Assembly: GCF_014698335.1 (NCBI RefSeq)
Contig: NZ_JACJSV010000019.1
Span: 1-62,002, forward strand
Reading direction: 5' to 3'
DNA from: Microcystis viridis FACHB-1342
GTDB taxonomy: Bacteria > Cyanobacteriota > Cyanobacteriia > Cyanobacteriales > Microcystaceae
DNA length: 62,002 nucleotides
Below the pieces are notes generated by a model that was not told the origin of the DNA, searched no databases, and saw nothing but the letters and a program-made list of their open reading frames with translations. Position numbers and translations under genes: made by a program. Shown here piece by piece: positions 6,215 to 42,303 of the stretch (the first letter of the stretch is position 1; each line of letters opens with the position of its first letter).

Positions 6215-6257
6215 TTCTATAGACATAGTTAAATCTTCTATCCCCTACCTGACAAAA

Positions 6258-6279
6258 CCTATCGGGTTTAGATGATAGG
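6258..6279 (+). terminator. Weak hairpin after cobI
   Basis: CCTATC (6258-6263) pairs with GATAGG (6274-6279) across a 10-base loop. There is no following U-tract, so it is at best a weak terminator or processing site. Confidence 0.25.
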
Positions 6280-8148: not shown

Positions 8149-10068
8149 ATGACAACCCTAATTGACTATTCAAATATTCAATCTTTACCCGAAGTTTGGT
8201 CAATAGTTGCCCAGCGTTTCCCCAATATTATCGCCCTGCACGATCCCCACAGTAAACCGGAAGTAATTCTCACCTATCGGGAACTTTATCAACAAATTCA
8301 GCAATTTGCCGCCGCTTTGCAAGCATTAGGAGTCACAGAAACCGAAAATGTCGCTTTATTTGCCGATAATAGTCCCCGGTGGTTTATTGCCGACCAAGGT
8401 TCCATGGCAGCCGGGGCCGCCAACGCGGTACGATCTGCTCAAGCAGATGCAGAGGAATTAGCCTATATTCTGGCCGATAGTGACAGTCAGACGCTGATTG
8501 TCGAAAATAACAAAACTTTAGGCAAATTGCTGGCGAAAATCCCTGAATTGCCCCTAAAATTAATCGTGCTGCTCACCGACGAAGACCCCGCTACTGGGGC
8601 GATTTCCGTGCAGACCTTAAATTTCAAGCAACTAATGGCGATCGGGGCTGAGAACACCCTTAAACCCATCACCAAGAGCGAAAATGATCTGGCTACCCTC
8701 ATCTACACATCGGGGACGACGGGACAACCAAAAGGGGTGATGTTAAGTCACGGTAATCTGCTGCATCAGGTACGCAACTTAAACGCTATCTTTCAACCGG
8801 ATCCTGGCGATCGAGTTTTAAGTATACTACCTTCATGGCACTCCTACGAGCGCAGTTGTGAGTATTTCAGTCTAGCTCAAGGTTGCACCCAGATTTATAC
8901 CAGTATTCGCACTTTTAAGCAGGATTTAAAGCAATTTAGTCCGCAATTAATGGTGGGAGTTCCCCGTCTTTGGGAATCTCTTTACGAGGGTATCCAAAAG
9001 CAATTTAGCGAACAATCGGCCACAAAACAGAAATTAGTGCGATTTTTGCTAGAAAAGTCGGAAAATTACGTTATTGCTAAACGTATCGCCGATAATCTCA
9101 GTCTTGATCACCTTCACGCTTCCGGGATCGAAAGACTAAAAGCAAGAATTCAATCCCTCTTACTCTATCCCCTCCATGCCATCGGTGACAAGCTAGTTTA
9201 TGGCAAAATTCGCCAAGCAGTGGGAAATAAAGTTAAAATCTTGGTTAGTGGCGGTGGTTCCTTAGCTAGACATCTAGATACTTTCTATGAGATTGCGGGA
9301 ATCCCGATTTTAGTTGGTTATGGACTGACAGAAACTTCTCCCGTCGCTACCGTCCGTCGTATCGATCATAACCTGCGCGGGTCTGCCGGTCGTCCCGTCT
9401 TTCAGACAGAAATCTGTATTGTCGATTTACACAGCAAAGAAGTCCTACCCACAGAAAAACACGGTTTAGTCTTGATTCGTGGTCCGCAGGTGATGCAGGG
9501 ATACTATAAAAAACCCGAAGCAACCGAAAAAGCGATTTCTCCCGATGGTTGGTTTGATAGCGGTGATATTGGTTGGTTAACCGCTGCCGGGGATTTAGTC
9601 TTAACCGGACGGGCCAAAGATACAATTGTTTTGAGCAATGGTGAAAATATCGAACCGCAACCGATTGAAGATGCTTGTTTACGCAGTCCCTTTATCTCCC
9701 AAATCATGCTAGTGGGACAGGATCAAAAAGCTTTGGGGGCTTTGATCGTGCCTAATCTTGATATACTGGCTAATTGGGCCCAAGAACAGAAACTATCCTT
9801 AAATTTACCCGATCCTCACAGCGATCGCTCCACGATTCTTTCTAGCGATCTCTACAGCAAAAAAGTCTTAGATCTCTACCAACAAGAATTAAAGCGCGAG
9901 GTGAGAAATCGGCCCGGTTATCGTACCGATGACCAGATTAAAACCTTTGAGTTAATTTTAGAGCCTTTTTCCCTAGAAAACGGCATGATGACCCAAACTT
10001 TAAAGATTAAACGACCGGTAGTAACGCAACGCTATCGCGATATGATTAACGAGATGTTTGCCAAGTAA
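8149..10068 (+). CDS. aas: Long-chain acyl-ACP/acyl-CoA synthetase (AMP-forming)
   Basis: 639 aa member of the ANL adenylating superfamily. The ATP-binding P-loop TLIYTSGTTGQPKGVMLSHG is at about residue 184, VGYGLTETSPVAT at about 390, WFDSGDIGWL at about 470 and the hinge-type GRAKDTIVLSNGENI at about 485. In cyanobacteria this single-copy enzyme recycles free fatty acids onto acyl carrier protein, so Aas is the more likely assignment than a catabolic FadD. That choice rests on lineage knowledge, not on a residue I can see. Independent transcription unit; the YlqD-like gene follows after 61 bases. Confidence 0.85.
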   Translation: MTTLIDYSNIQSLPEVWSIVAQRFPNIIALHDPHSKPEVILTYRELYQQIQQFAAALQALGVTETENVALFADNSPRWFIADQGSMAAGAANAVRSAQADAEELAYILADSDSQTLIVENNKTLGKLLAKIPELPLKLIVLLTDEDPATGAISVQTLNFKQLMAIGAENTLKPITKSENDLATLIYTSGTTGQPKGVMLSHGNLLHQVRNLNAIFQPDPGDRVLSILPSWHSYERSCEYFSLAQGCTQIYTSIRTFKQDLKQFSPQLMVGVPRLWESLYEGIQKQFSEQSATKQKLVRFLLEKSENYVIAKRIADNLSLDHLHASGIERLKARIQSLLLYPLHAIGDKLVYGKIRQAVGNKVKILVSGGGSLARHLDTFYEIAGIPILVGYGLTETSPVATVRRIDHNLRGSAGRPVFQTEICIVDLHSKEVLPTEKHGLVLIRGPQVMQGYYKKPEATEKAISPDGWFDSGDIGWLTAAGDLVLTGRAKDTIVLSNGENIEPQPIEDACLRSPFISQIMLVGQDQKALGALIVPNLDILANWAQEQKLSLNLPDPHSDRSTILSSDLYSKKVLDLYQQELKREVRNRPGYRTDDQIKTFELILEPFSLENGMMTQTLKIKRPVVTQRYRDMINEMFAK

Positions 10069-10129
10069 ATATTTCTGGTAAATATTCCCTAAACCCTTGA
10101 CAAAAAAACCTTTTTAGGATAAGCAAATC

Positions 10130-10579
10130 ATGGATGACGCACAAACCAGTTTATTACTGAAGCGCCCGGTGACAATTAAAGTCATCGTAACCCCGCGCTG
10201 GAAAGAAGAAGCACAACAGCAATTACAGGCACAAATGGTGCAAATTGATGCACAAATTCAACAATTAGAAAGCCAAGGACAAAGAGCGATCGCAGAAATT
10301 CAGCGTCAGAGTCTGATCCCCTTACCCCCCGCGGCTGCCCAACAGATTGACAATATTCAAATCCAAGTCAATCAACAGAAAAGTGAGTTTCTCGAACAAA
10401 AAAACCAGTATCTGCAACAACTGCAACAGATACAACTCTTGGAACTCAATCAAGAAGTCGCCCAAGCACAACTAGAAAGCTTTTTCCGCGTCGAAAAAGG
10501 CGATAACTTAGTGGCCAAAATGAATGTGGAACTCGTCCTTAGAGATGGCATCGTCGAAGAAATTCGCGGCGAAATTTAA
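10130..10579 (+). CDS. YlqD-family coiled-coil protein
   Basis: 149 aa, glutamine-rich. A short N-terminal beta-like segment (SLLLKRPVTIKVIVTPRWKE) is followed by a long helical coiled coil (about 25-125) and a C-terminal beta segment (NVELVLRDGIVEEIRGEI). This is the layout of YlqD proteins, whose function is not established. No signal peptide or membrane segment. Lies 61 bases after the acyl synthetase on the same strand. Confidence 0.7.
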   Translation: MDDAQTSLLLKRPVTIKVIVTPRWKEEAQQQLQAQMVQIDAQIQQLESQGQRAIAEIQRQSLIPLPPAAAQQIDNIQIQVNQQKSEFLEQKNQYLQQLQQIQLLELNQEVAQAQLESFFRVEKGDNLVAKMNVELVLRDGIVEEIRGEI

Positions 10580-10584
10580 AGCTA

Positions 10585-10661
10585 GGGTGAGCAGTTACGG
10601 GTCATTGTCAACTTAACCCTTAAAATCGGCAATAGCAAGGGGTATTCTCCCTTGCTCACCC
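10585..10661 (+). promoter_or_regulatory. Overlapping inverted repeats (terminator or switching leader)
   Basis: GGGTGAGCA (10585-10593) is the exact complement of TGCTCACCC (10653-10661). GCAAGGG (10635-10641) is the exact complement of CCCTTGC (10649-10655). The two pairings share TGC at 10653-10655 and therefore compete. No U-tract follows either hairpin. It may end the YlqD transcript or act in the leader of the next gene. Confidence 0.4.
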
Positions 10662-10826
10662 AGAAAACCGTCCCTAGTTCACATCACCCCTGACAGGACT
10701 TGATCAGACCTTAAAAATATATTAAGATTCTTTATCGATCGCCCGGACACACTCGCTTATATTGTCGTATAACTTCAGCTCTCCATCGACTCACCCTGAA
10801 TTAGATCCTATAAATATGGAATCTCT

Positions 10827-12191
10827 ATGCTTTCTTTCTTACCCACTATTCTTTTAGCTCAGTCCGCCTCGGTTCTGCCCCAGATAGAGAGGAAATTAAT
10901 CACCCAATATCAGGAAGTGCGTCAGTTGCCCGGTCAACTAAATGACGTTCTAGTTTTTAATAGCAATAGTCCCGAAGTGGTAGAAAAAGAGGGAATTCTC
11001 CTCTCCACTTTCCCCGGTAAAGGAAAACGTTTTCCCATAGCCCATCTCAATCATCCCCTACAAGGACGTTTTGACGTTTTCACCCACCACATCGCTCGTC
11101 AAACCGATCCCATCCGCGACCTACACCAGGGACTGATCGTTACTAATCCCACCTCCAAAAACCTCGTTATCCGCATCCTGCAAGGAGTCAGTTACGTCAC
11201 CTCCGCCGATGCCCCTTTTGTCGATTTACCCTCTCTGGTGGAAGATCCCAACGGCCGGGTTTTTTCCGGTCCCGGTTCCCGTTTAGCCAGCGATATCATG
11301 CGTCGTCGCCATGATACCCAATTTCCCACCCAGATCGTCATTCCCCCCGGCGAAAGTCGGATGCTCTTGGATCTAGTTATCCCCAGAAGCAGCGCTCGCT
11401 CGACTCTGCTGCGTCTCTACAGCGATGGCCCTATCTATATGGCTAATTTAGCCCTCTACGAAGTTCCCCAAAAAGTCAAAATCGAAGATCGGGAAATAGA
11501 AACCTTTCGTCCCCCTATCCTAGAGGAATGGCGTACCCTATTAGTTAGAGGTGATTTAGCCGCTCCTCGTGATTTTCCCCCCACTCCCCCTGATCAGTGG
11601 TCTCCCGGAAGAAGAAATTTTTATGGTCGCGTGGCCGGAATTTCTGTCGGTTCGGAATGGGCAACCCGCATTGTCGATCCCAAAGGGGGAATTAATCTCA
11701 CCATTCCTCAACCCGGTCAAGCTTTTGCCTATCCTTTAAGTACGGTGACAGCAGCTACTTTCGGAACCAGACAAATTCAAAGCGCCCCCATGTTAGTGCG
11801 TTATCCCGATACGGCTTTCAAAGCTCACGGTAACTACGGTGTTCACTACTATCTGACTTTACCTCTATATAACAACACTAGCAAAACCCAGGTGGTGGCT
11901 TTGACTATTCAAACCCCAATTAAAGAAGATAATTATCTCGATCGCTTGCTATTTGTTGAACCCGTCCAGGGACCGGTATTTTTCCGGGGTGCAGTGCGCG
12001 TTACCTATCGTAACGAACTGGGACGCACCGAGGAACGTTTTTTCCATCTCGTTCAACGGGAAGGACAACAGGGAGAAGCTTTAGTACAGATAGAACTTCC
12101 CCCCGGCGCCCGACGCGACGTTAATCTCGATTTTCTCTATCCCCCCGATGCCACCCCCCCCCAAGTTTTGAGCGTTAAAACGTTGAAATAG
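10827..12191 (+). CDS. DUF3370-family protein
   Basis: 454 aa, beta-rich protein recognised as DUF3370 by its FDVFTHHIARQTDPIRDLHQ segment, the QIVIPPGESRMLLDL segment and the GRVAGISVGSEWATRI region. The N-terminus is short and hydrophobic (LSFLPTILLAQSA), which could be a minimal signal sequence, so a periplasmic or envelope location is likely. Function unknown. Preceded by a 247-base gap that holds competing inverted repeats. Confidence 0.75.
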   Translation: MLSFLPTILLAQSASVLPQIERKLITQYQEVRQLPGQLNDVLVFNSNSPEVVEKEGILLSTFPGKGKRFPIAHLNHPLQGRFDVFTHHIARQTDPIRDLHQGLIVTNPTSKNLVIRILQGVSYVTSADAPFVDLPSLVEDPNGRVFSGPGSRLASDIMRRRHDTQFPTQIVIPPGESRMLLDLVIPRSSARSTLLRLYSDGPIYMANLALYEVPQKVKIEDREIETFRPPILEEWRTLLVRGDLAAPRDFPPTPPDQWSPGRRNFYGRVAGISVGSEWATRIVDPKGGINLTIPQPGQAFAYPLSTVTAATFGTRQIQSAPMLVRYPDTAFKAHGNYGVHYYLTLPLYNNTSKTQVVALTIQTPIKEDNYLDRLLFVEPVQGPVFFRGAVRVTYRNELGRTEERFFHLVQREGQQGEALVQIELPPGARRDVNLDFLYPPDATPPQVLSVKTLK

Positions 12192-12277
12192 ATAGTTTTT
12201 CTCGAAAAGTTAACGGCTGATTGTCCGGAGGAACAACTAAGATACACTGATATTAATCTCTCTCTGGGAATTAGCCG

Positions 12278-13168
12278 ATGGATATTAGCAAAACTTGCTT
12301 TATTTGCTGCTTATTATCTCAATTTTTGGGCAATGCAGCCGCGAGTTTAGCCGTGACTAAACTCGATTTTGATACCAGTCAACCCCTAAGAAATCAAGTG
12401 ATTAAATCGGGGAAAATTAAGGTACAAGTTAGCTATCAACCCATCGACCTAAACGAGAAAATTGATGACAATTCTGATCTTAATAATGTTTCTTATCAAA
12501 TCTTTTATAACGAGCAACTTTATCAGCAAAATAGCGGGTATAGTGCCTTTGGATCTGGCTATGTGGAATTAAGAGATTTAGATAATAATGGCATCGATGA
12601 GATTATCATCTCCACCTATAGCGGCGGCGCTCACTGCTGCACATCTTTGGTAATTTATACTTGGCAAAAAGATAGATTTATTAGAGAAGAAACGGGATTT
12701 TTAGATGGTAGTGGTGGTTCTTTTGAAGATTTAGATGGAGATAATAATTATGAATTTATTACCGTTGATAATTCTTTTTTATATGCTTTTAGTTCCTACG
12801 CTGCCTCTTTTCCTCCCTCCAAAATTTATACTTTTCAACAGGGTAAATTAGCAGATGTCACTAGAAAATATCCCCAAGAATTAAGAAAAACTTTAGCAGC
12901 AATGCTGAAAGCTTTTCAGTTAGCTAAAAAAGAAAAAGGCGAAGTTAATGGCATTTTGGCTGGTTATGTGGCACAGAAAATTATACTAGGAGAATACGAA
13001 GAAGCTTGGCAATTTCTTCTCACTAATTATGATAAACACTCCGATTGGGGTCTCGATATCCATGGCGAAAATACAGTGATCGGAAAATATCCAGACTTTC
13101 CCACTGCTCTGAGCGCTTTTCTCCTGAAAAATGGCTATTTATCTGAAAATAAAAACAATAAAAAATAG
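12278..13168 (+). CDS. Secreted protein with FG-GAP/VCBS-like repeats
   Basis: 296 aa. An N-terminal hydrophobic segment (TCFICCLLSQFLGNAAASLA) looks like a signal peptide. The middle has two calcium-loop-like repeats, ELRDLDNNGIDEIIIST and FEDLDGDNNYEFITVD, the D-x-D-x-D-G pattern of FG-GAP/VCBS propeller blades, with GGAHCC between them. The C-terminal third is helical. I do not recognise a named family. It is 18 bases from the next gene, and both look exported. Confidence 0.65.
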   Translation: MDISKTCFICCLLSQFLGNAAASLAVTKLDFDTSQPLRNQVIKSGKIKVQVSYQPIDLNEKIDDNSDLNNVSYQIFYNEQLYQQNSGYSAFGSGYVELRDLDNNGIDEIIISTYSGGAHCCTSLVIYTWQKDRFIREETGFLDGSGGSFEDLDGDNNYEFITVDNSFLYAFSSYAASFPPSKIYTFQQGKLADVTRKYPQELRKTLAAMLKAFQLAKKEKGEVNGILAGYVAQKIILGEYEEAWQFLLTNYDKHSDWGLDIHGENTVIGKYPDFPTALSAFLLKNGYLSENKNNKK

Positions 13169-13186
13169 CAAACGCTGTGAACAACT

Positions 13187-14635
13187 ATGTTAAAGAAAGT
13201 TAATTATCTGCGATCGCTATTTTGTTTTCTTGCTACAATTCTCTGGATTAGTCCTCTAGGGATTAACTCTAGTCTCGCTGTCAATGATAATTGTCAACTG
13301 TCCGAATCAGAAATCCAACAACAAGAAAATCTCCGTCAAACCTCGCCCCAAGAATATAACATCTTAGTACAGAAATATGCTGAACAATTGCGCTTTTGCC
13401 GTTCCCGACACTGGTTACAGGAACAGGCGATCTGGTTACGTCTCTACTCCTGTGATAGCCGTCCCGGATCGATGGAAAGTATCCTCGATCGCATCGTGGC
13501 CAAAGGTTATAATACAGTTTATGTGGAAGTTTTTGCCGATGGTCAAGTCCTATTACCTCCTAACAATAATCCCACCGTTTGGGATAGCGTCATTAAAAAT
13601 CCCAGTGCCGGAAATGTCGATTTATTAGCACAGGCAATCGAACAGGGACATAAACGCGGTTTAAAGGTTTATGCTTGGTTATTTAGCCTCAATTTTGGCT
13701 ATGCTTATAGCTTAAAACCCTATCGACAGGAGGTATTAGCACGCAATGGTAAAGGACAAGATAGCACCTCTTTTGTCGATGATCAATCCCAAACTTTTGT
13801 CGATCCCTACAGCAATCAAGCGCGACAGGATTATTTAATTCTCCTAGAAGCCATTTTACAACGTCGTCCCGATGGAGTTTTATTTGATTATATTCGCTAT
13901 CCCAGAGGAACGGGAGTCGATTCCGTTGCTGATGATGTCAAAGATTTATGGATTTTTAGTCCGGCATCCCGACAAGCTTTAATTAATCGAGGATTGAATA
14001 ATAAGGGCAAATTTCTCATCGATCGCTATCTGACTCGTGGCAAAATTTCCCCTGATGATATCGTCGAAGCCGATCGCCTTTATCCCCAAGAAACTGCTCC
14101 TCTCTGGCAAGGAAGAATACCTTTAGAAGAGGAGATGAAACAATCAGTTAAAAGTCGTTTTGATCGCCTCAAATTAGAACTTTGGTTCCTAGCGGTTGCC
14201 CATGCTGCCCAGGGTGTCATTGATTATATTAGTTATTTTTCTGCCCTGGTGGAACGTCAGGGAATTCCCGCCGGAGCAGTGTTTTTTCCCGATGGGAATC
14301 GTCTTGTGGGTAATCAAGGTTTTGATTCCCGTTTACAAGCTTGGGATAGTTTTCCCGCTTCCCTAGAATGGCATCCCATGTCCTACGCTAATTGTAACGA
14401 TACTACCTGTGTAGTTAATCAGATCAAAAGAGTAGTAGAAAGCAGGGGAAATCAAACTCCTGTTATCCCAGCTTTAGCCGGTTTATGGGGACAACCCTAT
14501 AACAATCGTCCCTCCTTAGAAGTGCAAATGGCAGCGATTCGCCTAGCTTTTCCCACCATAGATAGTATCAGTCATTTTGCTTTTTCTTGGCAAGAACCAC
14601 AATTCGATCGAGCCCGAAGATTTTGTCATAAGTAA
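13187..14635 (+). CDS. Family 10-like glycosyl hydrolase (GHL10 type), exported
   Basis: 482 aa with a signal peptide (LRSLFCFLATILWISPLGINSSLA). The body resembles the GHL10/DUF187 TIM-barrel family: IWLRLYSCDSRPGSMESIL, GYNTVYVEVFADG, HKRGLKVYAWLFSLNFG and RPDGVLFDYIRYPRG, the last containing the aspartate typical of the putative active site. Substrate unknown; a cell-envelope polysaccharide is a reasonable guess. The next genes on the opposite strand make exopolysaccharide, which fits but does not prove a link. Confidence 0.75.
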   Translation: MLKKVNYLRSLFCFLATILWISPLGINSSLAVNDNCQLSESEIQQQENLRQTSPQEYNILVQKYAEQLRFCRSRHWLQEQAIWLRLYSCDSRPGSMESILDRIVAKGYNTVYVEVFADGQVLLPPNNNPTVWDSVIKNPSAGNVDLLAQAIEQGHKRGLKVYAWLFSLNFGYAYSLKPYRQEVLARNGKGQDSTSFVDDQSQTFVDPYSNQARQDYLILLEAILQRRPDGVLFDYIRYPRGTGVDSVADDVKDLWIFSPASRQALINRGLNNKGKFLIDRYLTRGKISPDDIVEADRLYPQETAPLWQGRIPLEEEMKQSVKSRFDRLKLELWFLAVAHAAQGVIDYISYFSALVERQGIPAGAVFFPDGNRLVGNQGFDSRLQAWDSFPASLEWHPMSYANCNDTTCVVNQIKRVVESRGNQTPVIPALAGLWGQPYNNRPSLEVQMAAIRLAFPTIDSISHFAFSWQEPQFDRARRFCHK

Positions 14636-14641
14636 CCCCAT

Positions 14642-16843
14642 TTATACCTCCACCTTCACTTCCTCTGTCTCTGTTTGTCCTCGTGTTGGGGGAACTATCA
14701 AAGGCGGCAGTCCTGGTTCGGCGGTGTTGAGAGTCGGTGTAATATCGACGTAGTTAATCACCGCCCCTAAAATTTTCACTTCCGCTTCTGTTAACTGGTC
14801 AGTTGCTTCACTCAAGAGACTAGAACGAGTTATGGGCGGGCGCGTTACCAGAATAATCCCGTCCGCTAGTTCTTCTAAGAGCAGCGCATCATTACAGCTA
14901 GACAGAGAAGGAGTATCGACAATCACCAGATCGAAACGGCCGCTAGAATCTTTGAGAATCAATTGTAATTCGCTCGATTCAATGATAGCTGCCGCTTGTT
15001 TTTGCGGACCGGGACTAGGCAAAATGGAAAGGTTTTCTATATTTGGGGCCAGCCGGATCGATTTACTTTTTGCCCCGTAGTAAAGTAGGGGTTCTCGGAA
15101 AGAATTGGGATCGGGAGTGACTCCGATTTCTTCGGACTTAGAAGGACTTCTCAGATCTCCTTCGACTAACAGAGTCCGTCGGCCCGCTAAAGCCGCGGCG
15201 ATGGCCAGATTATAGGCAGTGGCGGTTTTCCCCTCTCCGCCAGTAATACTGGTGACAACAACCACTTTCACCTTTTCGCTGCCGCCAACAAGTCGCAGGG
15301 TACTGCGTAAACGTTCGTAGTAGGGGAGATAATTGGCATTAGCATCGGCGAGAATCGGATCGATTTCCTCGCCCTCTAAATTCCGGACAATGGGCAATTG
15401 TCCCAAGAGTAGTATATCCTGACTAACCAAAGCTTCCCGCAATTCTTGGGGACTGTGCAGGCGATCATCGATCACTGCTAACAGCAGGATCACACCCAAT
15501 CCGGCTAAAGTTCCCAAACCAGCACCCGCCAAGAGAATCAAGAGACGATTCTTGCGGTTAAACACCTGTTCGATCGGTTCAGCGACCGGCGGTTGGGCGA
15601 CGGTGAGACTACCCACGGTTTCCGCTTCTGCGGCCTGAGCATCCACCAGCGCATTGAGAATATTCTCGTAGATACCCCTTTGAAAGGCGACGGCTTGGGT
15701 TAAACGAGCTTGCTGTAACTGTTTATCGGGGAATTTCTCGTATTGGGAGCGTAATTGCTGTTCCTGAGTCACTAAGGATTCTAATTGTTTCATCAAACCC
15801 TCGCGCTGAGTTTGCAGGGCGACTAATTGACCCGCTAGTTGTTGACGGGCGGCATCGAGATTACTTTGCTGACGGATGCGATTGCTGGGAAGAGAGGTCA
15901 GGACACCATCTTTTCCGATCACCTCGGCGGCTCTTTTTTGTAAGAGAGATTCGTTAACTTCCTGTTGCTTGCGTAATTTAACTACGGCGGGATGTTCGGG
16001 ACGTAAATCCTTCTCTAGTCGCTCCAATTGGGCCTCTGTGTCCAAGATCTGCGCTCGGATACTGGCAATAATCGGGTCGGCACTAAGGGCTGAGGAGGTG
16101 TAGGCCTGATCGGGAGTTAAATCGAGTTGTTTACTCAGACTATCAATTTGTCCTTGAATGCCTTGCAGTCCTAGACGAATTTCTCGCTGTTGCTGTTGAC
16201 TACTGGTGATAGCGGCGAATAAACTCCCATCTTGAATGGCCAGTAAATCTGAACCCTGGCTACTAATGTAGCGATAAAATTTTTCTTCGGCTCTGGTTAA
16301 ATCTTTTTGGACTTCGTTAAGCCGGACACCGAGAGCTTCTATGCGGGCCCGTAACTGGGAAGTATTAATCCAGCGGCTGTATTCCACCATTTCCTTCATC
16401 AAGGTTTCGAGAATTAACTCCGCCTTGGCCCGGGAGTCGGCCGTTAACTCTAAAAGTATCTCTTGGGGTTGATCGCTATTATTTTTTCCCGCCGCTTCAC
16501 CCGGGAAGGTGATTTTTAAATCTTGATCGCGAATTTTAACGAGCTGTTCTTGATTAAATTGCAATTTTTTGGCTGTATTGATCAATACCCGGGGAGATAG
16601 CAGTAAATCGCGATCGATAGCCCGTCCTTGTTCTTGCAGTTGGGTTCCCGTACTGGTAAAAGCTGGCGGCGGTACCCGATAGGCTAGTTGTCCCACCGCC
16701 CGATAAAATGTGGGGGGTTTCTCTGGATCGGGGAGGAGAGCAAAGATCGCAGAACCACCTAAACAGACGAGGAAGACGAATATTCCCACAAATTTGTTCT
16801 GATCTAGCGAGATGAGAAATCGTTTAACAATTGGTAGAGCCAT
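14642..16843 (-). CDS. Wzc-like exopolysaccharide chain-length/tyrosine-kinase protein
   Basis: 733 aa polysaccharide co-polymerase. A transmembrane helix near residues 17-35 and a second near 435-455 (LLILLAGAGLGTLAGLGV) bracket a long periplasmic coiled coil. The cytoplasmic domain has Walker A SITGGEGKTATA, a Walker A'-like LLVEGDLRSPS and Walker B LVIVDTPS. The C-terminal tail (PPLIVPPTRGQTETEEVKVEV) has no tyrosine cluster, so autophosphorylation of a C-terminal tail is unlikely. It is last in the minus-strand block with the Wza-like protein and cyanoexosortase, and probably sets chain length of the exported polymer. Confidence 0.87.
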   Translation of the reverse strand: MALPIVKRFLISLDQNKFVGIFVFLVCLGGSAIFALLPDPEKPPTFYRAVGQLAYRVPPPAFTSTGTQLQEQGRAIDRDLLLSPRVLINTAKKLQFNQEQLVKIRDQDLKITFPGEAAGKNNSDQPQEILLELTADSRAKAELILETLMKEMVEYSRWINTSQLRARIEALGVRLNEVQKDLTRAEEKFYRYISSQGSDLLAIQDGSLFAAITSSQQQQREIRLGLQGIQGQIDSLSKQLDLTPDQAYTSSALSADPIIASIRAQILDTEAQLERLEKDLRPEHPAVVKLRKQQEVNESLLQKRAAEVIGKDGVLTSLPSNRIRQQSNLDAARQQLAGQLVALQTQREGLMKQLESLVTQEQQLRSQYEKFPDKQLQQARLTQAVAFQRGIYENILNALVDAQAAEAETVGSLTVAQPPVAEPIEQVFNRKNRLLILLAGAGLGTLAGLGVILLLAVIDDRLHSPQELREALVSQDILLLGQLPIVRNLEGEEIDPILADANANYLPYYERLRSTLRLVGGSEKVKVVVVTSITGGEGKTATAYNLAIAAALAGRRTLLVEGDLRSPSKSEEIGVTPDPNSFREPLLYYGAKSKSIRLAPNIENLSILPSPGPQKQAAAIIESSELQLILKDSSGRFDLVIVDTPSLSSCNDALLLEELADGIILVTRPPITRSSLLSEATDQLTEAEVKILGAVINYVDITPTLNTAEPGLPPLIVPPTRGQTETEEVKVEV

Positions 16844-30734: not shown

Positions 30735-32807
30735 TCAGGAGGAAAATCGATTAACTTCGATAATTTCCGTATATTCAAAATTATTAGGACTGCGTTTCAC
30801 TAGAGAATAATCAACACCATGAAGATTAATTAAGTCCTCTTGACAATCTGCTTTCGGAGAATTATACACTAACACATATTCTTTACCGATATAGGGAGAA
30901 ATCTCGGTTTCTACTTCTCCTCTCCATTGAGTTTTTGTCACTAAAACAACTAACTGATTGGCTAATTTAGGAATAGCGATCGCGACTTGCCGACGATAGA
31001 TATGATCAAGACTACCAAAAGGGGAATCCATCACCAGAGGAAAAGTGCTGCTATCAATTCCCATCAAAGTATTTTTCTGACTCCATTCTCGCACTCGATC
31101 GATAATTCCCCCGATAAAAGATAAACTAAGAATCTGATTTTCTCCGGTAGAAGCTGCCACGGGAATTGCGAATCCTGTGGTATTTTCTAATAGTCTTACC
31201 TCGTAATCGGGACTAATACGGGGAATATAGGGAGTAAAAGAAATTGAGCTAAAGATTTCCTGTACCCGTTTTTCTAAGGACAAACGAAACTGATTTTCTA
31301 ATCTCTGTCTTACCTCACTAATGCGATTAATTGCCTCTTGAGTCGCTAAAATACGTCGTTGTCCTAAATTAGATTTTTCCTCTTTTTGTTGCTGTTTTTG
31401 TACCTGCTTTTGCAGGGATTCTAACTCTTTTTCATAGATATCTAGTTGATTTTTATTGCTGCCCTGTTCCAAGCGTAAATCTTTTAGGGAATCCTCGATC
31501 GCATCTAAGCGAGATTGCAGATTTTTAATATCTTCATCGGGATAATGGCGAAATTTATCCCGCACTTCATCTAATTCTGATTCTACTAAAGATAATTCTA
31601 AGCGCCACTGGTGAATATTAGCTTGATAATTATCCACTTCTTGCCAAAAATCTAAGACTTTTTTATCCATTTCTTTGACTGTGGAAGATAAGCGAATGGC
31701 TGCTTCTTCTACATCGGCCATTCCTGCTTTATTCATCCAATCTTGTACCTGTAAATAAGCTTGGCTATTTTCCTGTAATTCCTGACCACAAATACATTTT
31801 TTTCCCTCTAATAATTGTTGGACAAATTGCTGTTTGATACCACTGGGTAATTCCCCTTGTTGTCGTAGGCGATCGATTAATTGCTGAAAATTTTGATTAA
31901 TTTCTTTTAAAAAGACTTGATAAGCTTGCTGAGAAATTAATTTCTTTAACTTATCCTTAGTTCTGACTAAATCTTGCCGCAGATTTCTTTCCTGTTGTTC
32001 TAATTTTTCTTTTAACTGTTTTAATTCCTCGGCACCACTTAACTCTAGTAAGCGATTAGTCACGGCTTTTTTTAATTCTTCTTGCTGGGATAACTGGCTA
32101 ATAATATCCTGCTGACGCTGTTTTAATTTCTCGAAATCCTGCTCAATTTTACTTTCCTGTTTTAATAACTTTTTTAAATCCGATTCCCCTAAATCTTTAA
32201 GCTCATCTTGTAAAGATTTCTTAGCTTTTTTTAAATGCTCGATCGCTCGATCTAATACTTTAACTCCCAATAATTCCTTTGTATCTTCGGCGATTTTACC
32301 TTGGCTACTACTACGAAATTGATGATCGATATATTCCCCATCAAAAAAGAAATAACGGTGTAAACTTTCGGGTAAAATTTGATTAATAATATCCTCCGCT
32401 GGTTGATTGGGTGTGTACCAATTACCATCATCACCAGCGTAGAGCATATATAAACTATTTGAACCGTATTTAATCTTACTATTTACATCTTGGTAGGCGA
32501 AAAATTTTCGTTTTACCTGATAGCGTTTATTTTCATGTTCAAAGTTTACTTCCGCGGAACATTCTATGGAGGTTCCCGTTGTTACTTCGGTAATTGCCCG
32601 TTTATTAACTAATAACTCTGGTTCGGCAAAAGCTGCTGTAAATTTTTCATAAAGAACCCAGGTACAAGCATTTAAAATTGTTGTTTTTCCTGCCCCATTA
32701 TTGCCATAAATTACCGTCGTATTGCGAGAACTCGCCGCTAAATGTATCTCAGGAGTCTTACCATAAAATTGTCGAAAATTACATAACTTTATTGATAGTA
32801 GTTTCAT
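30735..32807 (-). CDS. dndD: DndD-like SMC/AAA ATPase (DNA phosphorothioation)
   Basis: 690 aa. Walker A is VIYGNNGAGKTTILNACTW (residue 32 on). Two long coiled coils (about 190-310 and 390-500) flank a zinc-hook-like GKKCICGQELQ. The ABC signature is AASTGENQILSLSFIGG and Walker B/D-loop LVMDSPFGSLDH. FNG-type SMC layout with FRQFYGKTPEIHLA and FFFDGEYIDHQF matches DndD, the ATPase of the DndBCDE sulfur-modification system. No dndB or dndC adjoins it, but dndE is at 41905. A 58-aa partner gene precedes it on the same strand. DndD and other defence SMC ATPases are hard to separate by eye. Confidence 0.72.
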   Translation of the reverse strand: MKLLSIKLCNFRQFYGKTPEIHLAASSRNTTVIYGNNGAGKTTILNACTWVLYEKFTAAFAEPELLVNKRAITEVTTGTSIECSAEVNFEHENKRYQVKRKFFAYQDVNSKIKYGSNSLYMLYAGDDGNWYTPNQPAEDIINQILPESLHRYFFFDGEYIDHQFRSSSQGKIAEDTKELLGVKVLDRAIEHLKKAKKSLQDELKDLGESDLKKLLKQESKIEQDFEKLKQRQQDIISQLSQQEELKKAVTNRLLELSGAEELKQLKEKLEQQERNLRQDLVRTKDKLKKLISQQAYQVFLKEINQNFQQLIDRLRQQGELPSGIKQQFVQQLLEGKKCICGQELQENSQAYLQVQDWMNKAGMADVEEAAIRLSSTVKEMDKKVLDFWQEVDNYQANIHQWRLELSLVESELDEVRDKFRHYPDEDIKNLQSRLDAIEDSLKDLRLEQGSNKNQLDIYEKELESLQKQVQKQQQKEEKSNLGQRRILATQEAINRISEVRQRLENQFRLSLEKRVQEIFSSISFTPYIPRISPDYEVRLLENTTGFAIPVAASTGENQILSLSFIGGIIDRVREWSQKNTLMGIDSSTFPLVMDSPFGSLDHIYRRQVAIAIPKLANQLVVLVTKTQWRGEVETEISPYIGKEYVLVYNSPKADCQEDLINLHGVDYSLVKRSPNNFEYTEIIEVNRFSS

Positions 32808-36886: not shown

Positions 36887-38401
36887 ATGCCAGATCAGCC
36901 AATCTCGATCGCCCAATACTACCACGAGCGGACCAAATACGACCCCCAGACGATCGCTTCAAAAAGTAAAGGTCTTGATTGGAGTCAACAACCCTATCCT
37001 TTCAAAGAATACAAAATCGGTCAGACTTTCGATCTCAAACCCTACCTCTCCCGTCAAATAGTTCCCCAGAAAGGAGACTTTTGGCGACGTATATCGCGAA
37101 TTTTGGGCTGTAGCTATGGATTAACTGCCAAAATCGCCACTATGGGTAGTCCCTTGTACCTGCGTTCTGCACCCTCTGCTGGTGGATTATACCCCGCCGA
37201 GGTCTATCTGATCTCCCGTGGCACGGAATTTTTACCCGCCGGTCTCTACAGTTATCAAGGTCAAAGTCACTCGCTGCTTTTATTCTGGGAAAGTGATGTC
37301 TGGACGAACCTACAATCTGCTTGTTTCTGGAATCCTGTTTTAGAAAATACCGATATCGCTTTAGTTACCAGTGCCATTTTTTATCGATCCGCTTGGCGCT
37401 ACGAGGATCGAGCCTATCGGCGTATTTTCCTCGATACAGGGCATTTATTGGGCAATATTGAGCTATCAGCCTCGATTAATGACTATCGCGCTCATTTAAT
37501 CGGTGGTTTTAACGATAGTCAGATGAATGAATTGCTTTATCTTGATTCCGAGAAAGAAAGTGTCATGACGGTGATTCCTTTGGCAGATCTGCTCAATATC
37601 CGGCAAAATCTCCCCCCTAGTACCACGGCACTCCCTTCGACAACCACGACTCTTTATCCCAAAATTGCCGAGGGGGAATTATTAAACTCTCTACACCAAG
37701 CCACTATCATAGCCACAGATGAGAAGATAGAAGCAAATATTACCCCGTCTAATTGGGAAGATAAATATAATTTTCCTTTTTGTCTAAAAGTTTCGGTGAC
37801 ATCCCGTCCCGTCAATTGGGGGGAAGATTTAATCGATCTGGAAAGTACGATGCTTAAACGCAGATCTACCCGCGCTTATAGTGGTGCTAGTCTCAGTTTA
37901 GACGAATTGCGAGCGCTGCTGCATTTTACCTATCAACCCCAAGATTATGCCGACCAAAATCTCGATCCCAATCCCGATTATTTTGCTCTGGATTTATTGG
38001 AAACTTTTATCGCTGTTTCGGCAGTAACCGGATTAGAGGAAGGCTGTTATTATTATGCTCCTAAAGCCCAAGAATTGCGGCAAATTCGCTTTAAAAATTT
38101 CCGGCAAGAGTTACATTATCTCTGTTTAGGTCAGGATTTGGGACGAGATGCGGCCGCTGTGGTTTTTCATACGGCGGATCTGTCAAAAGCAGTGGCTAAA
38201 TATGGCGATCGAGTCTATCGTTATCTTCATGCAGATGCGGGTCATTTGGGACAGAGATTAAATTTAGCGGCTATTCATCTGGGGTTAGGGGTTAGTGGTA
38301 TCGGTGGTTTTTTTGATGATCAAGTTAATGAAGTGTTAGGAATTCCCTCCGATGAAGCAGTTATCTATATCACTACTTTAGGCCGACCAAAAGTTTTTTA
38401 A
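36887..38401 (+). CDS. SagB/ThcOx-family FMN oxidoreductase, tandem nitroreductase domains
   Basis: 504 aa with two nitroreductase-like halves. The N-terminal half contains LYLRSAPSAGGLYPAEVYLI; the C-terminal half begins LKRRSTRAYSGASLSLDELRAL and ends with HLGLGVSGIGGFFDDQVNEVLG. The family includes oxidases that convert azolines to azoles in RiPPs, but many stand-alone members have other roles. No precursor peptide or cyclodehydratase lies next to it. It converges on the putative biosynthetic operon, separated by a hairpin region. Confidence 0.8.
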   Translation: MPDQPISIAQYYHERTKYDPQTIASKSKGLDWSQQPYPFKEYKIGQTFDLKPYLSRQIVPQKGDFWRRISRILGCSYGLTAKIATMGSPLYLRSAPSAGGLYPAEVYLISRGTEFLPAGLYSYQGQSHSLLLFWESDVWTNLQSACFWNPVLENTDIALVTSAIFYRSAWRYEDRAYRRIFLDTGHLLGNIELSASINDYRAHLIGGFNDSQMNELLYLDSEKESVMTVIPLADLLNIRQNLPPSTTALPSTTTTLYPKIAEGELLNSLHQATIIATDEKIEANITPSNWEDKYNFPFCLKVSVTSRPVNWGEDLIDLESTMLKRRSTRAYSGASLSLDELRALLHFTYQPQDYADQNLDPNPDYFALDLLETFIAVSAVTGLEEGCYYYAPKAQELRQIRFKNFRQELHYLCLGQDLGRDAAAVVFHTADLSKAVAKYGDRVYRYLHADAGHLGQRLNLAAIHLGLGVSGIGGFFDDQVNEVLGIPSDEAVIYITTLGRPKVF

Positions 38402-38412
38402 GGTGAGTTTGA

Positions 38413-38470
38413 ACCCCTGAAGGGGTGACAAGGAGGCATCTGTCATCGTACTCTGTACCTTGACAGATGC
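38413..38470. terminator. Bidirectional terminator region
   Basis: ACCCCT-GA-AGGGGT (38413-38426) is a tight hairpin. GCATCTGTCA (38436-38445) is the exact complement of TGACAGATGC (38461-38470) with a 15-base loop. It lies between the 3' ends of the SagB gene and the dioxygenase gene, as expected for a shared terminator. Confidence 0.65.
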
Positions 38471-38495
38471 ACTTTCTCGCTGGGACGTATTTTGT

Positions 38496-39413
38496 TTAAA
38501 GGTTAATCCAACTACGCACCATTTGTCGAGGTTTTCCTGAATTTTTAAAAGCGGTTCTATTGTGGCATAAAAAGCGATTATTAACGTAAAATATATCACC
38601 TTTTTTCATTTTGAAGCGGACTGTATTTTCCGGTTCTGAAAAAAAGTTGTCGATGATGTCAAGTGTTTTTGTGATAGCTTCCGGTTGCGCTATTTCTAGT
38701 TTGGAGTAAGCAACTTCAATCCAGTACCGCATATAACGAAAAACCAGACCCCGAGAATCTGTTGAGAATAAGGGGAAATTATTATTTTGAATAGCTTCTT
38801 GAGAATTAATCTCTCCAGGGGTAATCACATCCCGCGCCAAAGGTTCGTAGAGACAGGGAACTAGGTCTGTATGGTGTTGCCAGAAATATTGATACAAATT
38901 GGCGGCGTTTACTACCAGGGAATCTCCTCCCTCATCCGCGGCAGCAAGACAGAGTAAGCCAACAATATCAGGGAAGTAGTTTTTGGCTGTACTATCGGTA
39001 TGATAGCCAGTTTCTGCATTCGTCATCGAAACGGGTATAGCTTCTTTAGTGTAATCCATTCCTCGATCGATTACATCAAAAAAATAGCCATAGCGGTGGT
39101 TTAGCAGTCCAAAAATGCGAGAAATAAAAGCATAAATTAACCGCATTTCTATTTCTGTTAATTCCGGTTCTAATCGGAAAATAATTATGCCTGGTTCCTG
39201 GAGCAATTTCTCACGAAACGGCAGGAAAAAGTCAAGATTTTTATTAACTGTTTGCCGTCCTATTTCGTTGGGTTTGTCAAGCCATCTCTGATTGCTTGTT
39301 TTTAGTAAATCTGAGACTAATGATTCTGGTACATGAAAAAATAGTTGAGAAGGATCAGGCAATTTTTTCCAAGTCAGTAATGAAATATTAGGATCAGAAA
39401 TCGGTATAATCAT
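38496..39413 (-). CDS. TauD/TfdA-type Fe(II)/2-oxoglutarate dioxygenase
   Basis: 305 aa. The facial triad is visible: H138 and D140 in GYHTDSTAKNYFPD, and H284 in FLCHNRTAFKN, followed by a conserved arginine (R296 or R300 in KPRQMVRSW) for 2-oxoglutarate. It probably hydroxylates or otherwise oxidises a small molecule. Its ATG overlaps the preceding methyltransferase stop by 4 bases, so the two are translationally coupled. It is the last gene of the three-gene operon, followed by a terminator. Substrate unknown. Confidence 0.82.
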   Translation of the reverse strand: MIIPISDPNISLLTWKKLPDPSQLFFHVPESLVSDLLKTSNQRWLDKPNEIGRQTVNKNLDFFLPFREKLLQEPGIIIFRLEPELTEIEMRLIYAFISRIFGLLNHRYGYFFDVIDRGMDYTKEAIPVSMTNAETGYHTDSTAKNYFPDIVGLLCLAAADEGGDSLVVNAANLYQYFWQHHTDLVPCLYEPLARDVITPGEINSQEAIQNNNFPLFSTDSRGLVFRYMRYWIEVAYSKLEIAQPEAITKTLDIIDNFFSEPENTVRFKMKKGDIFYVNNRFLCHNRTAFKNSGKPRQMVRSWINL

Positions 39414-40171
39414 TTTTGAATCTTGAAGGCAACGTGAAGGGGAAGGTCAATGAGCGGAGTAAAAAATTCTGGGTCTAGTTCTAAATGTTCCTGATTAATT
39501 TTTAGTTCATAAACTTCTGGCATTTTTGTGAATGCTGCTAAACGAAGAGATGTGAAGTAATCTTCCATAGTTTTATGAACACATTGCACGGCGACGGCTT
39601 TTCTATCTCGGCGCCAAATCTCACCGGGGAATAATTGATCGCGTCCAGAAAAATAGCCAGCTTTCGGTTTAAAATAAAAGGGAAACTTATCTTTTTTCAG
39701 AAAAGGTAAAGAGGGATGGGGGACGGCGAACAGGAAATAGCCACCGAATTTCAAAAGTTGGTAGGCTTTCTGCAGCGTGCTAATAGTTTCTGAAACATTT
39801 AAGTAGTTGAACAGGAACATAGCCAGAACTAAATCGTATTGTTCGGACTCAGTGACCGCAAAATCACGAATATCACCAGTTTCATAAGAAACATTAGTAA
39901 TCTGATACTCGTTTTTTTGAATCAAGGCCTGCTCGATCATTTGCGATGAAATATCAATCCCATGAACATATTGAGCGCCTCGGTTAATTAACTCTCTTCC
40001 TACATAACCTTCCCCACAGCCTAGATCTAATATATTCTTGTTGACAATCGGTTCACATAAATCAATGACAAACGGACGCGCAGAGTAATCAGAAAGCAAA
40101 ATCGGTTCTACTCGTTTCCAGTCTGCTGCGCTTTCTTCGTAAAGTTTTTTGGTTTCTTGTGTTGCTTTCAT
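39410..40171 (-). CDS. Class I SAM-dependent methyltransferase (operon member)
   Basis: 253 aa with a complete SAM-binding motif, NILDLGCGEGYVGRELINRG, then HGIDISSQMIEQA and YDLVLAMFLFNYLNVSE. The C-terminal part (PFYFKPKAGYFSGRDQLF) is not diagnostic. It sits 26 bases after the HDO-cupin gene and overlaps the dioxygenase by 4 bases. Substrate unknown, possibly an amino-acid-derived nitrogen or oxygen. Confidence 0.85.
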   Translation of the reverse strand: MKATQETKKLYEESAADWKRVEPILLSDYSARPFVIDLCEPIVNKNILDLGCGEGYVGRELINRGAQYVHGIDISSQMIEQALIQKNEYQITNVSYETGDIRDFAVTESEQYDLVLAMFLFNYLNVSETISTLQKAYQLLKFGGYFLFAVPHPSLPFLKKDKFPFYFKPKAGYFSGRDQLFPGEIWRRDRKAVAVQCVHKTMEDYFTSLRLAAFTKMPEVYELKINQEHLELDPEFFTPLIDLPLHVAFKIQK

Positions 40172-40197
40172 ACCTATCTAACGGGATAAAATTTGCA

Positions 40198-41709
40198 CTA
40201 ATTTTGTTTTAGTCTAGCACTGTGTAAGTAATTACCCATAAAACTTTTACCAGTTAATCCAAAATCAGCTATCGCCAGAAAAATTAGCTCTTCTTCTCCT
40301 AAGTTCACAGATTGATGCACACACCAACGGGGAATAACAGCAAAAGTACCCGGTTCGACTTCGTTTTCGTATTGATCAACAATAACTTTTCCTTGACCCT
40401 GAAGAAATACAAATACGGTTTCATGTGCGTGTTTGTGCATTTCATTCGCCTTTCCTGGCTTGACTATAACTAGGCGTGCATCTAAAACTTCTAGAGCAAA
40501 TGGCAGGCGAAATACGTTAAAATCAATATTGAGTTTATCAACCTTATTGTTGTACAAAGCCTCTAAGTTGCTGGCCCTGATTGTTGAAATAAGCTCTTTA
40601 CCTTCTTGGACATGAGTTAGGCTTTTTTGTTCATTAATTTTTTCGGTCAATGCTCCCAGTCGCAGCGTTTGAAAATCATGGTAAAGTTGTGATGCAAGCC
40701 TTAATATTGTTGGAGAGCATTGGCATTCACCAGATGGATTTTCAAGCCAATCTAGCAAGTTCAGAACTTCTTCCCTGTGCTTTTCCCTTTGCATCCCGTA
40801 TAGCAAAAGTGAACTCAATCCGGGTAGTAGTTTTTCCCCTGGAACAGTAGATAAGTCTTCCGTCAATCCAATCCGCACATCATTGATTTGATGCAATAAA
40901 AGTTCCTGTTCCTGATTAGACAGCCTTTTGCCTTTAATCATTTTAGTCAAAAGCGTAACAATCTTGAGTTGGTCTGATGATATCAAAGATTTATCTAGTG
41001 CCAACGCACGTTCATACATATTGTCCCAGTAAGCAGCACGTAGATTTAAGGCTTTTAACATTCCTTTGCGTAATTCCAGAACAGCTTGTTCGCTTTCGCT
41101 GGCTAATTCCCTAGCAATCTCAACTAAAGTTAAGCTGTGTTCATCCTCCACTTCTGTATGTAAAGGAAAAAATACATATTGCTCCAAGGATAATGATGTA
41201 TGGTTTTTAATCGCTTCAATAATGTGTTTGTAGATAAATTTAACCACAGATTCAGTCCCTAAACCTATGGCTCCAATAGCTTCGAGTGGACTTCCATTCT
41301 GGAGCAGCGATAAGAATGATTCACGCCAGATTTCTACTTCAACACAAGGCTTTTGCGTGCTATCTACTCCCATAGCTTCTTGAAAACGCTTGAATAACTG
41401 TGGGTGAGGAATTTCCTGTACCCACTCGTCTTTAATACCTAATTTACGGATTGCTTCCAGATATTCATCCTGTAGATGTCCGGTTTCTTCAGCTAAGTTC
41501 TCCAGCAGGTGATTTCGATGAGTGGGATTTTCTAGCTTTGATATTACTGCTGTTAAATAGCGGGAAAACCAGTCACTATAAGCTCCATATTGACTGGCAA
41601 AATCTTTCAGAACTTCATCAATATGTTGAAATTCTCCTTTTTCTAAAGCAAGTAAATACGGGTGATTAATTGCTCGATGGCTTAGTGCTTCCTTGATTAA
41701 GTTTTCCAT
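40198..41709 (-). CDS. Heme-oxygenase-like diiron oxidase fused to a cupin
   Basis: 503 aa. Residues 1-240 are an all-helical heme-oxygenase-like domain with a plausible diiron ligand set: E74/E75 and H78 in NLAEETGHLQDE, E153 in GLGTESVVKF, then H184, E188 and H191 in PLHTEVEDEHSL. The H-x3-E/D-x2-H spacing matches that recalled for SznF and related N-oxygenases. Residues 245-390 are helical. Residues 400-480 are a cupin with H425, H427 and E430 in MHKHAHETVFVF, and H465 in PRWCVHQSVN. SznF also joins these two metal domains, but with the helical region first. GGGAATGAG precedes the ATG. Probably a metal-dependent oxygenase of small-molecule biosynthesis. Confidence 0.75.
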   Translation of the reverse strand: MENLIKEALSHRAINHPYLLALEKGEFQHIDEVLKDFASQYGAYSDWFSRYLTAVISKLENPTHRNHLLENLAEETGHLQDEYLEAIRKLGIKDEWVQEIPHPQLFKRFQEAMGVDSTQKPCVEVEIWRESFLSLLQNGSPLEAIGAIGLGTESVVKFIYKHIIEAIKNHTSLSLEQYVFFPLHTEVEDEHSLTLVEIARELASESEQAVLELRKGMLKALNLRAAYWDNMYERALALDKSLISSDQLKIVTLLTKMIKGKRLSNQEQELLLHQINDVRIGLTEDLSTVPGEKLLPGLSSLLLYGMQREKHREEVLNLLDWLENPSGECQCSPTILRLASQLYHDFQTLRLGALTEKINEQKSLTHVQEGKELISTIRASNLEALYNNKVDKLNIDFNVFRLPFALEVLDARLVIVKPGKANEMHKHAHETVFVFLQGQGKVIVDQYENEVEPGTFAVIPRWCVHQSVNLGEEELIFLAIADFGLTGKSFMGNYLHSARLKQN

Positions 41710-41743
41710 TTTTTCTCATTCCCCGATAGCCGCCCCTTTTTAA

Positions 41744-41772
41744 ATACTATCACAAAATTGGCCAATTGTCGA
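41744..41772 (-). promoter_or_regulatory. Promoter with a 12-bp palindromic operator for the three-gene operon
   Basis: On the minus strand, TCGACA (41772-41767) and TAGTAT (41749-41744) are 17 bases apart and resemble -35 and -10 boxes. The perfect palindrome AATTGGCCAATT (41756-41767) fills part of the spacer and touches the -35 box, a typical repressor position. It is 35 bases upstream of the ATG at 41709. Confidence 0.45.
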
Positions 41773-41904
41773 TAGCGTTTGAGATGCGCTCATTCTGGGT
41801 TAAATATAACCAGGCTGACAGTTTTCCTTCGGGTTATCTCAGAAGGATTAAGTATAAACCACAGAGGCACAAAGAACACAGAGAGGAAGATAGAGTGTTC
41901 TTGA

Positions 41905-42303
41905 TTAAGATTCTCTCAGATTTTCCCTCTCTAATTCGATTAAATTATCGATTTTTTTTAGCTTGGCATCCCCAGCAAGATAACCGATACCGCGATGTAA
42001 ATGTAAGCGAAATTGTTGAGTTAGAGTTTCTTTATCGGTTCCTAATCCGTCTTGATGACAACGTTGTTTGAGGGCAATTAAGAAAATATCGGCCATTTCT
42101 CCCCCGAATACTTTCCAAGATAATTCTACATTGCTATCGGCAGGAATGGGAACGGGAGAGGGGAGACTCGGTTCAGCAAGGGAACGACAAAAAGCCCAAC
42201 GACAGAGGATATTCCATTGGTCAATTTTGGTGTAGCGTTTTAATTTTATGAGGCTATCTTTGGCGGTTTGAGATAGTCGAAAACGTTCGATCGGTGATTC
42301 CAT
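41905..42303 (-). CDS. dndE: DNA sulfur modification protein DndE
   Basis: 132 aa, recognised as DndE (DUF1832). It has FRLSQTAKDSLIKLKRYTK, WNILCRWAFCRSLAEPSLP, the tetramer-type GGEMADIFLIALKQRC segment and the C-terminal FRLHLHRGIGYLAGD. DndE binds nicked DNA and works with DndB/C/D in phosphorothioate modification. None of dndB or dndC is beside it; dndD is 9 kb away on the same strand, with an unrelated operon between. Upstream DNA (42304-42475) has no other dnd gene. Confidence 0.85.
   Translation of the reverse strand: MESPIERFRLSQTAKDSLIKLKRYTKIDQWNILCRWAFCRSLAEPSLPSPVPIPADSNVELSWKVFGGEMADIFLIALKQRCHQDGLGTDKETLTQQFRLHLHRGIGYLAGDAKLKKIDNLIELERENLRES

Follow-up and report, generated by a model that had tools for sequence, protein, structure and literature searches.

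A compact operon encoding a haem-oxygenase-like diiron-cupin fusion, a methyltransferase and a TauD-type dioxygenase in Microcystis viridis, and its relatives in other bacteria

A three-gene block in Microcystis viridis

The stretch of DNA analysed here (hereafter, the window) consists of 62,002 nucleotides of Microcystis viridis FACHB-1342 (contig NZ_JACJSV010000019.1, positions 1 to 62,002) and contains three tightly packed genes on the minus strand. These genes encode a fusion of a haem-oxygenase-like diiron (HDO) domain with a cupin, a class I S-adenosylmethionine (SAM) methyltransferase and a TauD-type Fe(II)/2-oxoglutarate dioxygenase (Table 1), and together they very probably form a dedicated biosynthetic module. 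The arrangement is that given in the original prediction, which was made from the sequence of the window: the HDO-cupin and methyltransferase genes are separated by 26 bases (40172-40197), and the methyltransferase and TauD genes overlap by 4 bases (39410-39413).

Table 1. Features of the operon and its surroundings (positions in the window unless given as residues of the encoded protein)
Feature	Position	Strand	Details
HDO-cupin fusion	40198-41709	minus	503 aa; open reading frame (ORF) and Pfam
HDO domain of the fusion	residues ~1-240		candidate ligands E75, H102, E153, H184, E188, H191
Linker between HDO and cupin	residues ~245-400		
Cupin of the fusion	residues ~404-485		candidate ligands H425, H427, H429/E430, H465
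Class I SAM methyltransferase	39410-40171	minus	253 aa
TauD-type Fe(II)/2-oxoglutarate dioxygenase	38496-39413	minus	305 aa; candidate facial triad H138, D140, H284
Accessory block missing at the same site in G310 (L052) and G095 (L051)	38424-41899		limits are BLAST alignment ends
Stretch missing in G097 (L050)	38416-41842		limits are BLAST alignment ends
Inverted repeat GCATCTGTCA / TGACAGATGC	38436-38470		3' of the TauD gene; possible transcript end

Pfam places Haem_oxygenas_2 at residues 36-224 and Cupin_2 at residues 413-480 of the first protein, in agreement with the proposed joining of a helical HDO-type domain to a cupin. At the sequence level, the protein belongs to the HDO superfamily, with a haem-oxygenase-like domain and the E-H-E-H-(D/E)-H motif, and the ligand set listed in Table 1 comes from profile alignment to CADD and BesC. 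Among the ligands proposed originally, H184/E188/H191, E153 and E75 are present and conserved in the aligned rows (E188 being Asp outside Microcystis), but H78 is not conserved: this position is Thr in L008, Ile in L041 and Gly in L042. The conserved histidine of helix 2 is instead H102, which aligns with H88 of CADD, just as E75 aligns with E81. The spacing between E75 and H102 is about 20 residues longer than in CADD, and the insert is common to the Bacteroidota rows described below. In alignment A3, a profile of 13 HDO relatives that includes neither the window row nor any Microcystis row, the six ligand positions are invariant in 13/13 HDOs, with Asp at position 188; the Microcystis rows of alignment A2 have E188. 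The proposed cupin residues H425, H427, E430 and H465 are all present and, along with H429, are kept in all nine cupin-bearing rows of A2.

Against solved structures, profile A3 matches BesC and CADD with E values of 2e-23 to 4e-23, compared with 0.002 for SznF. The 503-aa sequence alone matches BesC (0.002) and CADD (0.01), and SznF is not among the 50 matches listed at E<=1; with profile A1, CADD is among the best solved matches, and SznF is not among the best 60 of 84 matches. The best NCBIfam match of the HDO domain is TIGR04305 (61 bits, with a cut-off of 200), and the best solved matches of the cupin are cupins of sugar isomerase, gentisate dioxygenase and oxalate decarboxylase.

The second and third genes were also assigned correctly from the start. 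The second encodes a class I methyltransferase of the Methyltransf_25 type (Pfam, E 4e-19, residues 47-144) with the glycine-rich SAM motif LDLGCGEGY; its nearest solved structure is ToxA (8rdl, E 2e-15), and no other member of the module is as evenly conserved. The third encodes a TauD/TfdA-type dioxygenase (Pfam TauD, E 2e-24) in which the HxD...H facial triad is present. Its nearest solved structures are 7n7v, a predicted hydroxylase, and FrbJ, and its best NCBIfam matches are the TmpA, gamma-butyrobetaine and trimethyllysine dioxygenases, at 51, 49 and 37 bits against cut-offs of 400, 415 and 268, respectively.

Presence, absence and selection within Microcystis

Since only some of the first-pass candidates are scored in the genome searches, all genome counts given here are lower bounds. 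The methyltransferase was detected in 6 of the 10 sampled genomes of the genus, and in all 6, the HDO-cupin, methyltransferase and TauD genes lie together between dndE and the gene for a SagB-type dehydrogenase, the two genes that flank the block in the window. The block is missing from the other four; in the three of these that were examined, the flanks are kept and the site is empty, and in G310 and G095, 16 bases stand in place of the block. The three genes come and go as one block in Microcystis.

Proteins of the window are 93-96% identical to those of named Microcystis records. The ratio of nonsynonymous to synonymous substitution rates (dN/dS) relative to the window is 0.04-0.36 overall in 21 comparisons, that is, three genes at seven loci from six strains (L002, L003, L004 and L005 were treated as the same strains as G235, G625, G251 and G355, and L006 as a further strain). 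The individual ranges are 0.16-0.32 for HDO-cupin, 0.04-0.22 for the methyltransferase and 0.21-0.36 for TauD, compared with 0.06-0.11 for the neighbouring SagB gene. The block is kept functional under purifying selection, though less strictly than SagB. Given that dS of the block genes (0.06-0.15) resembles that of SagB (0.08-0.12), the block has been diverging within the genus for about as long as its neighbour.

Two regulatory features proposed for the operon fared less well than its genes. The proposed promoter is a 9/12 match (41772-41744), and the region 38380-41950 contains 5 such matches, fewer than the mean of 8.5 in shuffled sequence. The inverted repeat after the TauD gene occurs in the window and also, with a single mismatch, in L005. 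It is broken in L002 and L003 (2/4 copies) and is rejected as a conserved terminator; in the window sequence, it is not followed by a run of T. As for the flanks, dndE of the window (41905-42303, minus) is without the gene for a 661-665-aa AAA_23-type protein that precedes dndE in L043, L083 and L084, and another AAA_23 gene is located at 30735-32807 (minus), 9 kb from dndE.

Homologues in Bacteroidota

A neighbourhood search for the same genes elsewhere, the check suggested in the original prediction, yielded close homologues in five Bacteroidota genomes, with the methyltransferase-TauD pair found in four. These five loci (L007-L011) come from metagenome-assembled genomes, two of which name a pond or Lake Erken as the source in their record titles, and encode HDOs 65-73% identical to that of the window. 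Here, the HDO and the linker with the cupin are encoded by two separate genes, which overlap by 4 bases in L009, L010 and L011. All five genomes with the HDO have a cupin match, located in two of them on a contig other than that of the HDO; in one of these two, G386, a stop codon interrupts the matched cupin stretch. The methyltransferase (60-66% identity) is present in 4/5 genomes and is directly followed by TauD in 4/4. In three genomes, it lies on the same contig as the HDO, at most 2.5 kb away and with other genes of the set in between (that contig of G388 holds just the beginning of the gene), and in G387, the HDO and the methyltransferase are on different contigs. No strong methyltransferase match was found in G390 (best E 3e-4); a separate contig of this genome, distinct from that of its HDO-cupin pair, carries an H-NOX gene (L089, 1456-1989, minus) followed by a sensor-like gene. 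A GNAT gene adjoins the HDO in 4/5 loci, the fifth HDO being near a contig end. In L010, a PaaE-like reductase (310 bits, with a cut-off of 421) is encoded between the cupin and the methyltransferase and could possibly serve as an electron donor. A search of one Bacteroidota order recovered only its own centre (1/64 genomes).

In the methyltransferase tree, the Microcystis and Bacteroidota sequences form one group (100/100) that is separate from the H-NOX-linked rows described below. The HDO tree contains the same grouping at 100/100, where it also takes in the long-branched rows L041 and L067; both trees carry long-branch warnings. This grouping suggests that the genes were transferred between the phyla, in either direction.

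A wider family of HDO-methyltransferase operons

Association of the HDO with this methyltransferase extends beyond Microcystis. In a sample of 386 genomes of the phylum, the 12 genomes with the methyltransferase are the same 12 that have a match to the HDO part at E<=2e-10, a threshold chosen after the list was seen, and in every one of them the two genes are adjacent; the three genomes in which the HDO match is weaker (G358, G116 and G053) have no methyltransferase. In the phylum and order samples combined, the HDO adjoins the methyltransferase in 16/16 cyanobacterial genomes that encode the latter, which, being related to each other, do not represent 16 independent events.

Eight Cyanobacteriales genomes other than those of Microcystis (seven loci of family f5, L069-L075, and one of f11, L082) contain a related operon in which the methyltransferase adjoins a distant HDO, a protein denoted c6, an H-NOX protein and a kinase. 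The methyltransferases of the seven f5 loci are 46-52% identical to that of the window. One H-NOX protein and one H-NOX-associated histidine kinase were identified by Pfam and the rest by similarity, with five of the H-NOX proteins recovered also by a family search; the one H-NOX protein tested is strongly similar over its full length to Alr2278 (E 4e-75), and the kinase is an HNOBA-kinase. The c6 protein has an HxD...H pattern, the sole basis of its label as a putative oxygenase, and yielded no family match in Pfam or NCBIfam and no match in the Protein Data Bank better than E 0.17. In L082, the HDO and c6 form a single protein. Across 291 Cyanobacteriales genomes, the methyltransferase was detected in 12, H-NOX in 28 and c6 in 5, and in all 5 genomes with c6, no more than 2 kb separates H-NOX from the methyltransferase. 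Five of the seven f5 loci (L070-L074) contain, upstream of the HDO and H-NOX genes, what we take to be an apcE-like gene and an apc-like gene for a 161-168-aa protein (cluster c3). No description of a link between an HDO and H-NOX was found in searches of the open-licence literature, which took in few subscription journals.

Other members of the family differ in their partners. In G504 (L081), calmodulin-like EF-hands are fused to an HDO (5227-6468, plus) whose coding part is interrupted by an in-frame stop; a methyltransferase-TauD fusion is encoded alongside, and the genome has no H-NOX or cupin match. L081_05, considered as a separate cupin gene, was rejected as such, being the latter half of the HDO gene, after the in-frame stop. 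Thus, three fusions are found among module members: HDO-cupin in the window, methyltransferase-TauD in L081 and HDO-c6 in L082. In L041 (G343) and L067, the HDO and methyltransferase are accompanied by putative ATP-grasp-like and DegT-like genes and by another HxD...H protein; the L041 ATP-grasp scores 29 bits (cut-off 218), and the HxD...H protein of L041 is without a family match. L067, from an Indioceanicola plasmid, is the one useful relative among five plasmid records matched. In this locus (9908-15586), the HDO-methyltransferase genes come directly after flagellar-type and tetratricopeptide repeat-like genes and before the ATP-grasp-like and DegT-like genes, as labelled from reading the sequence, a layout that resembles a glycan decoration locus.

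L042 (G053) encodes a separate HDO-cupin fusion (41% identity in the cupin), with no methyltransferase match in the genome. On another of the five plasmid records, from Pantoea agglomerans (L068, 7905-9905, plus), a 666-aa protein annotated as ectB has an HDO-like N-terminal part ahead of the annotated diaminobutyrate transaminase, possibly an HDO-aminotransferase fusion, and is not part of this module. A virus-borne form of the module was rejected: the 24 pattern matches in viral contigs included no relative.

What the operon may make

The presence or absence of the genes as a block, their recurrence across phyla and the fusions bear out the part of the original prediction that posits a cohesive oxidative operon; the further analogy with SznF and N-oxygenation is plausible but unproven. 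The operon probably makes an oxidised small molecule using two iron oxygenases and a methyltransferase. Our best explanation, offered tentatively, is that the block encodes a short biosynthetic route, plausibly an N-oxygenating one, and belongs to a wider operon family with a core of an HDO, this methyltransferase and an Fe(II)/2-oxoglutarate-type oxygenase. By analogy, N-oxygenation or N-N chemistry might be the key step, with somewhat less than an even chance. In the proposed scheme, the methyltransferase would methylate an amino acid or a similar amine or guanidine; the HDO, with two metal ions and O2, would oxidise the methylated substrate, with nitrogen a plausible site; the cupin, which is part of the HDO protein in Microcystis and a protein of its own in Bacteroidota, would rearrange or cleave the reactive HDO product; and TauD would hydroxylate the outcome. 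The N-oxygenation reading derives from the szn and ham precedents and from the H-NOX link: with H-NOX and the kinase encoded in the related operon of eight cyanobacterial genomes, the pathway may yield nitric oxide (NO) or an NO-releasing compound, either directly as its product or through breakdown of that product, as is the case for the SznE/SznF intermediate.

Several observations weigh against N-oxygenation. By sequence, the HDO is nearest to BesC and CADD, not to SznF, and the reactions catalysed by HDOs vary widely. In the H-NOX loci, the HDOs share only 22-26% identity with that of the window, the putative oxygenase differs as well, and none of the eight genomes has a cupin match, so that the H-NOX link may not carry over to the window, the connection to NO being an argument by relatives. 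H-NOX was found in none of the 10 sampled Microcystis genomes and in one of the five Bacteroidota genomes (drafts), there on another contig. In addition, the model for fragin assigns N-oxygenation to HamA and HamC and not to the cupin (PMC5878181).

An alternative is a module of the same kind in which the HDO acts on an amino acid by C-H or C-C chemistry of the BesC/PolF type (desaturation, cleavage or ring formation). An unusual amino acid would then be completed by the methyltransferase and TauD, and H-NOX in the relatives would only regulate the route. We regard this as a serious possibility, although short of an even chance: BesC is the nearest match of the HDO profile (E 2e-23), the ligand motif is common to HDOs of different chemistries (PMC11363339), and in L041 and L067, the HDO and methyltransferase genes stand beside putative ATP-grasp and DegT genes, as would be expected for an amino-acid building block (with the weak ATP-grasp score of L041 noted above). 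This alternative, however, leaves the cupin unexplained, and likewise the linkage of an NO-type sensor in 8/8 loci of the H-NOX-linked type. Less probable by far is a betaine- or carnitine-like route in which the methyltransferase makes a quaternary amine that TauD hydroxylates. The best NCBIfam matches of TauD point that way, all far below their cut-offs, whereas its nearest solved relatives are 7n7v and FrbJ, and the route provides no role for the HDO and the cupin. A CADD-like self-sacrificing p-aminobenzoate synthase with unrelated neighbours, suggested by TIGR04305 as the best NCBIfam match and by CADD among the best solved matches, is contradicted by the replacement of the sacrificial Tyr27 and the amine donor Lys152 of CADD (PMC11965152) with L19 and I163 (alignment read by eye) and is highly improbable. 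Hardly more credible is a chance assembly of neighbours without a common function, for which the functionally unrelated flanking genes, SagB and dndE, might speak, and which the block-wise presence and absence, the cross-phylum recurrence and the fusions contradict.

A bolder version of the N-oxygenation reading, which we consider unlikely, is that operons with the HDO, the methyltransferase and the Fe(II)/2-oxoglutarate-type oxygenase are a source of NO or of an NO-releasing signal independent of nitric oxide synthase, with a cupin-equipped version in Microcystis and Bacteroidota. The maker and the H-NOX sensor would then form one gene group in several cyanobacteria, with the calmodulin-like EF-hands on the HDO of one relative, G504, and the cupin-equipped route might serve for chemical signalling in blooms.

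The HDO family is growing quickly, and about a dozen of its enzymes have been characterised (PMC13108848), so that a conserved, compact and unassigned module could lead directly to a new reaction. Through the H-NOX link, the loose question of the NO source for these sensors becomes a test that is feasible in any culturable cyanobacterium with the operon. Should the Microcystis version make a reactive N-oxygenated compound, this would be an unrecognised bloom metabolite, with its genes in 6/10 sampled genomes of the genus.

Comparison with known systems

The nearest solved HDO relatives, BesC and CADD/PabS, share the six-ligand pattern with the window protein; we know of no cupin or methyltransferase partners for either. 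HDO-cupin fusions, methyltransferases of this type and TauD enzymes are all of known kinds, and searches of the open-licence literature (with few subscription journals) found no description of their combination in this module. A 2024 survey of SznF relatives used SznF as the BLAST query (PMC11177257), and the sections of it consulted do not mention the present clade.

In architecture, the operon resembles SznF/StzF and SznE of the streptozotocin pathway of Streptomyces. SznF is a single protein with the HDO in the middle and the cupin at the C-terminus (PMC11705231); accordingly, the domain order, originally thought to differ, is the same, HDO followed by cupin. The two proteins also share the E-H-E-H-(D/E)-H ligands, a motif common to HDOs of different chemistries, a methyltransferase in the pathway, and a cupin His-x-His with another His 38-39 residues on (H407/H409/H448 in SznF, PMC11705231; H425, H427 and H465 here). 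The product of SznE and SznF can decay to NO (PMC11705231), and a seventh iron ligand, a Glu, has been described for SznF-type enzymes (PMC13108848, PMC11363339). Unlike SznF, the window protein has a first Glu-His distance of 27 residues, compared with 10, a longer stretch between HDO and cupin, a Glu beside the first cupin histidines, and a TauD partner. An orthologous or closest relationship to SznF was rejected given the far stronger matches to BesC and CADD. Since the two halves are separate genes in Bacteroidota, the HDO-cupin fusion of Microcystis probably arose separately from that of SznF.

NO sensing by H-NOX and histidine kinases is linked to the family through the cyanobacterial relatives that encode H-NOX and HNOBA-kinase beside the HDO and methyltransferase, unlike the sampled Microcystis genomes, which are without H-NOX. 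The ham (fragin-valdiazen) cluster of Burkholderia differs in being based on non-ribosomal peptide synthetases and in having an AurF-type N-oxygenase, and the consulted sections of its description name no methyltransferase or TauD, but it combines the haem-oxygenase-like HamA with a separate cupin, HamB, and is responsible for a diazeniumdiolate as well as a signal molecule (PMC5878181).

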